Source of the DNA: Plumapathes pennacea
Lineage: Eukaryota > Cnidaria > Anthozoa > Antipatharia > Myriopathidae
Assembly: GCA_964036295.1 (NCBI GenBank)
Contig: OZ038473.1
Location: forward strand, 3,565,501-3,629,500
Length of the DNA: 64,000 nt
Reading direction: 5' to 3'
A program made the translations under genes and the position numbers. The notes below the pieces were generated by a model, which searched no databases, was not told where the DNA came from, and saw only the letters and a list, made by a program, of their open reading frames with translations. This document shows positions 31,001 to 34,000 of this stretch, piece by piece (position 1 is the stretch's first letter; each line of letters opens with the position of its first letter).

Positions 31001-34000
31001 CATTTGAAGTTGTACACGAGTGCACGGTGACCCTGCTTAAGCTGTCTAGTGTTTCTAATGTCTAGCTATAAACTCTGGGGAAGTATGTGAAAGGATGCAA
31101 GAGCTCAGATACAATGTATGCACGTACAAGGGGATGCACATTAAACACATTTATTACCAACACACAAGTCGATAAAAAGGTTTTCAGGTTTTCGCACAAA
31201 TCAATTCAGTCCAAAATATTTTGGTAATTTAGTATTTATGTTTAAAAACGTTAGATTTATGTTAAATTATAGATGTTACCAATAGGCCCACCATCTTAAT
31301 TAGCAACAATTTCGCACTGAAAAGCTTCACAAACCCGGTTAATTTTAGGTGTCAAAATAACAACAGAGAGACAGTAAAATGTTAGGGAAATGAATTTGAA
31401 GGAGGCAAAGGGATTTATGACATGTGGTGAAATATAAGATATGTCAGTATCATGTCATGATTGAAGCTGATAAATGTTGCAAGTGAATGACCCGCCGTGT
31501 GCATGTGCAAAATGCTTTCTTCATCACTTGCTGGTTGTGCTCACTTAATGCTCTTTCACCCCTGTTATCAACTTCGATATTCTCCTTCAGCTTACACTAG
31601 ATTTATCATATCATACAGTATGGAGAACTTTAACTTTTGATAGTTTGCTGTGATGAAAGCTGAATATCAAAATAATAAATCAATTCTTGTTACATCTGCT
31701 CATACATTTTCTTCTTCAATGGTTGGGAGAATTTGGATACAATAAAACTGTCCTTGATGTCAAAATAAGCACAAATCTCAGGAAGTGATGATTAGATAAA
31801 GCACAAGGACACCGTACCTCTTCAAAGTGCAAAGGAGGCGACTTTGAAATATTGGTCTAAAAGAAGAAGAGATATCATAGCACATAAAAGAGCAATAAGT
31901 TCAACGTCACTTGAGCACCATACAGAAGCCCGGTAATGCTGAGTTCATCTGTTACACTATCCTTTTTATTCAAGCTACAGATGTATACTGTTTGGTACCA
32001 TTATTATTTGGAAAAATGAGTGGTAAGAGTTTATGGTAATCATATATAGCTAGATTGTAATTATTATTTATTGAAATAGGTTTCCTTAGATTTATGTAGC
32101 ATCATTACAACAGATCCAAATCACAGGAAAAGTGAAGAGGTTAGATAACATACAGTATATTTAACATTGATCCACCAGTATGTTTGAGAGATAGGTCTTG
32201 TCTGGTTATTAGTATGCTTTACTGCCGAAAAACTGCATTGTACACACATGTAATTCTGGATTAACTATTGACCATTAGCATGAGGGAAGTAATCTTGTGT
32301 TTATTACAAGCTTTAAACAACCATAGCACAGGTACCATAATTTTATACAAACAATGTAAACAAAAAGGTAATCAAAAAATTATGAAACTGCACAAAAAAC
32401 ACCCATCAGTGTGCATGTTATAGAAACAAACTTACCTCAAGAAAGAAATTAACTAAATAGGAATCCTGCTTCAATTTAGAGCAAACTGTACAAAAAACAC
32501 CCATCGGTGTGCATGTTATAGAAACAAACTTACCTCAAGAAAGAAATTAACTAAATAGGAATCCTGCTTCAATTTAGAGCAAACTGTACAAAAAACACCC
32601 ATCGGTGTGCATGTTATAGAAACAAACTTACCTCAAGAAAGAAATTAACTAAATAGGAATCCTGCTTCAATTTAGAGCAAACTGTACAAAAAACACCCAT
32701 CGGTGTGCATGTTATAGAAACAAACTTACCTCAAGAAAGAAATTAACTAAATAGGAGTCCTGCTTCAATTTAGAGCAAACTGTACAAAAAACACCCATCG
32801 GTGTGCATGTTATAGAAACAAACTTACCTCAAGAAAGAAATTAACTAAATAGGAATCCTGCTTCAATTTAGAGCAAACTGTACAGAGGAACTGAATCTCT
32901 TCATTCTCTGAAGGAGCAGCCCTCACTTCACCACACAGACGAATAAGTCTCTGAGGGAAAACAAAAACAACACCTTAGGCCACGTTGACACTTGGTGCCC
33001 GAGCACTAGTGCCTGAGCACCGGCAAAAATGAAAAGAAAAATAAAACGCGTTCCCACTGTGAACCGGGTCCCACTTTAGTGCCCGAGTACAAGGTCTCGA
33101 CCTTGTACTCGGGCACCGGCACCGTGCCTGAGTTCTGGCGTGGGCACTTGAAAAAAAGGTGTGTTCACACTAGTGCTCAGCGAGAATCGTGCTCGGGCAC
33201 CGTGCTTGGGCACCAAGTGTGAACGCGGCCTTAGTTAAATTAAACTCAGTACATTTTTTATAGTTCAATAAACACATAATCAACATAAAAAATTGTGTAC
33301 CATGATTATATCCCACATCATTCAAAGTAGTGTCTACAACATTTTATTTCATGACATTGCCAGAGATAATTTGCTGATAATGAGCTTTAATTGGTAACAC
33401 TACCAGAATGTTTTGGTAACTCAATCAAAACATTGTTGGTAATAAGTATATGTAAGCCACCTTGTTTACTTCCAGGAAGAAACAAATCTCACCCAAAATA
33501 CCATACTTACATGCACCGGCCTGTACACATTCACGTGTGGAAGAAGGGGCTGTTTTATCTTGCCCAACAAATTTGCAAAGAAGGACAAGACCTGTTGTTT
33601 CATTCCAGGAGGACACTGTATAAGCAGGAAGACAAAAATATATTTAACAAAATAATATCGTTAATTATTTATACAGTATTGATATATTATCAACATGGTG
33701 TGCACAAAATGTACCATGATTTAATCTGTGCCAAAAATTTAATTATTAAGAATCCACACTTGCCTATAATGGACTGGAAACAGATGAATACAAACTTCCT
33801 CCTTTTATAAGCTGTGCCAATTTCTATATGTAAACATGGCTATACCTCTAAACTGGTCACTTTACATTCCAGAAAGACTTAAACTTGAACTTTACATCAT
33901 CCAACAGTATCATGGCCTTCATAACAATCAGGGTAGATAGTTGTAATACTTACATCTGCTCTTCCCAAGGTGTGTAACGTATCCAATATTTTGTGCTGCA

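Follow-up and report, generated by a model that had tools for sequence, protein, structure and literature searches.

Does a run of four extra copies of an exon end, each followed by its own splice donor, act as a set of poison exons that can switch a gene off, or is it a neutral product of tandem duplication that splicing leaves out? The question is raised by a FHIP2-like gene on the minus strand of a 64,000-nucleotide stretch of the Plumapathes pennacea genome (contig OZ038473.1, positions 3,565,501 to 3,629,500; hereafter the window). A sequence-only reading of this stretch had claimed that the last 50 nt of exon 6, with the GTAAGT donor and the following intron, recur four more times at a 98-bp period, that an acceptor-like sequence stands upstream of each copy, that inclusion of a copy would read F-A-L-N and then stop, and that the copies differ by very few bases. 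It left a splicing switch and a neutral recent duplication as alternative outcomes.

Tandem Repeats Finder places the array at 32385-32884, with a period of 98, 5.1 copies and a 99% match, and the units start in register at 32877, 32779, 32681, 32583 and 32485 on the minus strand, which bears out the claimed copying (Table 1). The five 98-bp units lie head to tail; the first holds the real exon end, and the other four are extra and sit within intron 6. Each unit is made up of the 50-nt end of exon 6, GTAAGT and 42 nt more of intron, so that the intron part is 48 nt long. As had been said, few bases differ: 3 of the 98 columns vary over the five units (unit 2 has T>C, and unit 5 has both C>T and A>G), one of them in the exon part and the other two in the spacer of the outermost copy, and units 1, 3 and 4 are identical to one another. 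The edge unit 5 holds two of the three variant columns, a number too small to judge homogenisation. Directly before each of the four extra copies stands GTTTTTTGTACAG, and the tail after unit 5 is GTTTTTTGTGCAG. When the 290-Mb genome (24 contigs) was searched, the array was present at one place. These results show tandem copying and not chance similarity.

Table 1. Positions and properties of the FHIP2 array, its gene and the other donor-bearing arrays (window positions unless a locus is named).
Feature	Position	Strand	Size	Details
Exon 5	33511..33615	-		ends ...NVYRPVH, phase 0 into exon 6
FHIP2-like coding exon 6	32828..32950	-	123 nt	41 codons, phase 0; frame RLIRLCGE...VNFFLE open
Intron 6 (predicted from the phase-consistent exon chain)	31857..32827	-	971 nt	579 nt when the four extra units are left out
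Exon 7 (predicted)	31818..31856	-	39 nt	acceptor 10.37 bits; presumed normal splice partner of exon 6
Unit 1	32780..32877	-	98 bp	real exon end (50 nt, 32877-32828) + 48 nt intron; donor GTAAGT at 32827
Unit 2, first extra copy	32682..32779	-	98 bp	T>C at 32757; donor at 32729; acceptor AG ends at 32780
Unit 3, extra copy	32584..32681	-	98 bp	same as unit 1; donor at 32631; acceptor AG ends at 32682
Unit 4, extra copy	32486..32583	-	98 bp	same as unit 1; donor at 32533; acceptor AG ends at 32584
Unit 5, last copy	32388..32485	-	98 bp	donor at 32435; acceptor AG ends at 32486
Unit 5 tail, presumed ancestral intron		-		T at 32408; TGTGCAG at end; final acceptor-like site ends at 32388
HERC1-like exon array	L025		86 bp x5.1	354 nt open; PDB 4o2w, E 1.7e-71, up to exon end
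NUP188-like exon array	L027		91 bp x3.1	192 nt open; PDB 5ijo, E 2e-5, up to exon end
LOTUS-domain exon array	L031		128 bp x3.9	393 nt open; Pfam E 2e-8; best PDB E 0.37 (unconvincing)
MIB1-like intron array	L036 (G000 C6:19545600-19546400)		five 27-bp units	PDB 4tse, E 2.4e-21, across splice
Donor array without open exon	L037			
Acceptor-donor array	L038 (G000 C2:24760150-24761150)		156 bp	acceptor 8.6 bits + 51-53 nt + strong donor, three units
Cassette array	L039 (G000 C9:7967300-7968700)		165 bp, ~7.7 copies	98% match (within the stretch taken)

The gene model consists of twelve exons picked for consistent phase, from which 361 residues were submitted to Pfam. The spliced model matched PF10257 (RAI16-like) with an E-value of 2.5e-88 in a single unbroken stretch (residues 78-361). 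In an exon-by-exon profile search of the genome, exon 6 matched profile positions 56-98, and the alignment with PDB 8qat_C (FHIP1B, E 2.5e-07) reaches the end of exon 6. The family of the gene is thus confirmed, and by its likeness to vertebrate sequences we take it to be probably FHIP2 and not FHIP1. Of the nine exon-wise genome matches to PF10257, this gene accounts for five; the other four belong to a second locus, on contig C1, which is probably FHIP1. The assignment of exon 7 is based on phase and on the unbroken Pfam match running through it, and "sixth exon" is a numbering that depends on the exon model. The authentic exon that adjoins the array appears intact, since unit 1 is part of exon 6, the frame is open and the Pfam match is unbroken. 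The neighbouring genes are presumably tankyrase-, OGA- and PIGN-like.

Other repeats lie in and near these genes. A 261-bp element with 33-nt inverted ends (88%) is found at 32974-33234 on the minus strand, 23 nt upstream of the exon 6 acceptor. It has at least 92 genome matches (40 of 133 candidates were scored), and a dozen near full-length copies elsewhere are 91-98% identical; it is a MITE-like repeat that was recently active. Because this element lies on one side and the array on the other, exon 6 is bracketed by two apparently young insertions. Past another FHIP2-like exon (27153..27063), which is itself uncopied, an 89-bp array of 3.4 units begins after about 28 nt (26730-27035, minus strand). 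Within the PIGN-like gene region, a tRNA match (RF00005, 33.4 bits, cut-off 29) at 50281-50350 on the minus strand could be a tRNA-derived repeat.

The strength of the copied splice signals was scored with a weight matrix trained on 33 window introns (34 were listed, and one was dropped with a boundary one base off), with percentiles by leave-one-out. The array donors score 11.61 bits (91st percentile of the 33 introns), the acceptor that precedes every extra copy 10.55 bits (70th percentile), and the acceptor-like tail after unit 5 11.27 bits (82nd percentile). Since acceptor and donor both score like real sites, each copy resembles a complete small exon. This look is uncommon, although the feature was chosen after the fact: 2 of 393 interior intronic AGs (about 0.5%) score as high as the copy acceptor or higher, and sites of at least 10.5 bits occur once in 6796 interior nt of 13 introns, or about 1.4% per 98-nt stretch. 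A simple gene finder picked an internal GAAGCAG acceptor within each copy, which keeps the frame; this candidate was rejected at -1.53 bits, below all 33 introns.

Poison exons are alternative exons that bring a stop and lie near a constitutive exon; they are whole exons and are often conserved and regulated. Judged by score, the FHIP2 copies would have the splice-site-like flanks of normal strength that such exons need, and their inclusion brings the premature stop. A copy spliced after exon 6 is computed to read VNFFLE-FALN-stop, exactly as had been claimed, while exon 5 joined to a copy reads RPVH-FALN-stop and read-through of the first donor reads VSLFL-stop. Among the outcomes considered, full-length protein comes only when the first donor is joined to exon 7. 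Neighbouring copies are separated by a spacer of 48 nt, versus 75 nt for the shortest of the 33 window introns; gene finding in fourteen 10-kb samples gave 10 confident introns, the shortest of 145 nt. The candidate introns that join the first donor to a copy measure 48, 146, 244 and 342 nt for the four copies in turn, and length alone is no bar to inclusion because skipping one copy or more gives introns of at least 146 nt.

The edges of the array suggest how it arose. The tail of unit 5 retains the presumed ancestral intron, GTTTTTTGTGCAGTTTCATAA, and the exon 6 sequence at the other breakpoint is CTCTGTACAGTTTGCTC. At the breakpoint the two have TGT(A/G)CAGTTT in common (9/10), so that the earlier claim of a sequence shared by exon and intron stands as a motif but not as an exact TGTACAG. 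Overall, exon 6 and the ancestral intron had no excess of ten-mer similarities (3 were found, and 20 shuffles gave 3.9 on average), but a breakpoint would land on such a pair by chance about once in 2000, by rough arithmetic from pair counts. The copies look acceptor-like because the intron gave the T run and the exon gave the ACAG. We propose that the first duplication took place between two short similar sequences, TGTACAGTTT in exon 6 and TGTGCAGTTT at 48 nt into the intron, that the repeat then expanded to five units, and that recency or homogenisation has held the units nearly uniform; recency would be read here from identity, which homogenisation could mimic. The real first donor would still join exon 6 to exon 7 and the extra copies would all leave with the intron, and it is on this account that the array may be tolerated. 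It is nonetheless plausible that copies are included at a low level, which would bring a premature stop and decay, because the breakpoint sequence would give each copy a usable-looking acceptor.

Tandem arrays are common in this genome. The window and fourteen 10-kb samples, two of which flank the window, make up 204 kb and contain 24 arrays with a period of at least 25 and at least 1.9 copies (one edge-cut array is counted twice). Among these 24, the FHIP2 array is the only one that combines a strong donor (at least 11.6) with a strong acceptor (at least 10.5) on one strand. The 290-Mb genome was scanned for three exact AGGTAAGT donors at similar spacing (54-176), which gave eight loci, and the sequence around the array was read at all eight. 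Because the scan is strict (exact words, at least three donors), these counts are lower bounds. Half of the loci (4/8) are exon-end arrays at coding exons, in the FHIP2, HERC1-like, NUP188-like and LOTUS-domain genes, and the idea that the FHIP2 array is unique in kind in the genome is ruled out by the three further cases.

None of these three arrays has a strong acceptor before every copy. The best acceptor of the HERC1-like array (8.5 bits, near the median of real acceptors) is a single site in a degenerate copy, and those of the NUP188-like and LOTUS arrays score 5.5 and -0.0 bits between the two. Breakpoint microhomology was counted as clear only at FHIP2 and LOTUS; at LOTUS it is 13/15 in the best of seven registers tried. 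At the NUP188-like breakpoint A(T/C)CTGTGA is shared by eye, whereas the automatic comparison picked another register, and the right edge of the HERC1-like array is degenerate.

Donor arrays were also found outside recognisable exon ends. At L038, at most 78 nt are open before the first donor. Seven complete cassettes at L039 each combine an acceptor of 13.0-14.0 bits, a 51-nt exon-like piece (17 codons) and a donor of 11.6 bits, and these are possibly many identical in-frame small exons. In the MIB1-like intron, acceptors of 11.2-12.9 bits are fused directly to donors of 12.3 bits, giving five zero-length sites in a row that resemble those of recursive splicing; any one of them might be used and re-spliced with the protein unchanged.

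As a control, the scan was repeated with the reversed pattern. The real and control matches were 6 and 49 at spacings of 54-83, 6 and 9 at 84-114, 1 and 25 at 115-145, and 10 and 18 at 146-176, and with GTGAGT in place of the donor word, spacings of 84-114 yielded 2 matches, both from a single locus, against 4 in the control. This control is rough, since it counts matches, of which one array often yields several, and since reversing the pattern makes another word of it. Because the reversed control matched more at each spacing, donor-bearing arrays are not favoured, and we rejected the idea that they are an enriched class.

Three further arrays in the window touch the neighbouring genes or the window edge. 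At the end of the OGA-like gene (48300-48490, plus strand), the final codons and the stop have been copied into the gene's own 3' region as three units of about 67 bp, which is a second gene-end tandem duplication in the window. In a tankyrase-like intron, a 17/36-bp array (17365-17584, plus strand) supplies part of the sequence upstream of an acceptor, since it ends 6 nt before the exon starting at 17591. An 80-bp array of more than 60 units crosses the left window edge (window 4-3910 and L002 8628-10000) and exceeds 5 kb overall.

Mirages are minisatellite-like tandem duplications of exon-intron boundaries, described in lancelet Adh3 and globin genes (PMC3087553). The FHIP2 array has this structure, being a minisatellite-like repeat of five units whose unit spans an exon-intron boundary, and it joins this known kind. 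It is probably a recent or homogenised mirage that was seeded by microhomology, is largely neutral and is for the most part bypassed by splicing, with some leaky inclusion possible at a low level. The exact 98-bp period, the three variable columns and the 9/10 breakpoint microhomology argue for this, as do the three further coding exon-end arrays, the OGA-like gene-end array, the abundance of arrays (24 in 204 kb) and the precedents in lancelet genes and human CBS, whereas the copy acceptor and donor, which score like real ones and give an exon-like look uncommon for an array, argue against it. The neutral duplication proposed earlier is thus the best-supported outcome, with "recent" widened to "recent or homogenised", since identity could reflect homogenisation. 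The same scores would also suit regulated poison microexons, which would be included conditionally, add FALN-stop after VNFFLE and send FHIP2 mRNA into nonsense-mediated decay, with copy number tuning the strength. The 70th- and 91st-percentile sites, the premature stop in all three other splice outcomes tried and the 39-nt exon 7 that the same gene appears to use are consistent with such regulation. We nevertheless consider it very improbable, as near-identical copies imply youth or homogenisation and not conserved regulation, the other exon-end arrays have no strong acceptor before every copy, donor arrays are not enriched over the reversed control, splicing one copy to the next would take a 48-nt intron when none of the 33 window introns is shorter than 75 nt, and the papers on known mirages report or suggest that splicing is left undisturbed (PMC3087553, PMC3902484).

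Unregulated splicing noise, that is, a low and constant inclusion of copies as a mildly deleterious load of near-neutral origin, overlaps with the mirage reading and differs from it in degree. It is possible but rather unlikely: the splice-site scores and the range of introns available from the first donor speak for it, while normal mRNA is reported for the lancelet cases (PMC3087553, PMC3902484). An assembly artefact, with a wrong repeat number or a duplication that is itself a collapsed or expanded error, has a parallel in one globin mirage array that looks aberrantly assembled in the genome draft (PMC3087553), but is very unlikely here, where the copies differ at three columns, the ends are clean and the array sits at a single place in a 14.9-Mb contig. 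Least expected is a nascent gain, in which a copy becomes an exon or the 48-nt spacer becomes an intron. The spacer starts with GTAAGT, ends with TTTTTTGTACAG and contains a branch-like TAAC at a distance of 30 nt from the acceptor, and there are precedents in potato RdRp (PMC4974935) and in the proposal that mirages are a source of new introns in lancelet globins (PMC3087553). However, 48 nt is below the 75 nt of the shortest intron and a copy brings a stop that truncates the protein after about 211 residues, and we regard such a gain as extremely improbable.

Arrays of this kind offer a natural test of how the spliceosome chooses between several identical donors spaced 98 nt apart. A strict, exact-word search shows that they recur at four coding exons in one genome, and this defined set of arrays makes splice choice, copy-number instability and the birth of introns or exons from mirages testable. 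A bolder extension, which we hold to be quite improbable, is that exon-end arrays recur and that at FHIP2 the breakpoint happened to make acceptor-exon-donor cassettes, so that array length could serve as a heritable, length-variable dial diverting transcripts into decay, a poison-exon rheostat. Should the copies be spliced in, FHIP2 would illustrate how a neutral repeat can become a regulatory poison exon at little cost.

Several known systems resemble the FHIP2 array in part. Titles and abstract openings of openly licensed papers on FHIP2A mention no such array. Mutually exclusive tandem exons (PMC9741552), like the FHIP2 copies, are alternative exons beside a constitutive one; these and poison exons are whole exons, in many cases conserved and under regulation, whereas the FHIP2 copies are partial and frame-breaking and are candidate exons read in the genome. 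A closer parallel is the human CBS 31-bp VNTR, c.1444_1467+7(16_21), whose unit, as read from the notation, is the last 24 nt of an exon and 7 nt of intron in tandem; unlike the FHIP2 array, it has 16-21 short units and is polymorphic in people (PMC2630376). The CBS 844ins68 allele is likewise a tandem duplication of a splice junction, reported as tolerated because splicing uses one copy (PMC2630376). In potato RdRp, according to the report, a duplication that crosses an exon-intron boundary and supplies splice signals, as in FHIP2, yielded a new intron (PMC4974935), and further cases of intron gain by tandem duplication are described in Drosophila (PMC2891723). The potato case involves the acceptor side, one extra copy and an intron supported by RNA-seq, whereas FHIP2 has the donor side and four extra copies, read in the genome.

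The closest relatives are the lancelet mirages, which share with FHIP2 a boundary-spanning tandem duplication whose copies lie in the intron adjoining an authentic exon. They occur in different genes, and copy number and mRNA were studied there. The lancelet report describes BflGb6 haplotypes of 6 and 3 units that are 81-100% identical, edge units that escape homogenisation and, by citation, somatic instability of the Adh3 mirage (PMC3087553); the FHIP2 copies, with three variable columns, are more nearly identical than those of BflGb6. Many, but not all, mirage units carry AG/GT signals, which its authors see as possible cryptic splice sites, while splicing seems to be regular from the data on Adh3 and from RT-PCR of the globin genes (PMC3087553). 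A second report states that the Adh and troponin C mirages yield no aberrant mRNAs and suggests the same for PGBD5 (PMC3902484). The nearest match in form is BflGb9, in which the 3' boundary of an exon is copied (PMC3087553), the same side as in the FHIP2 array.
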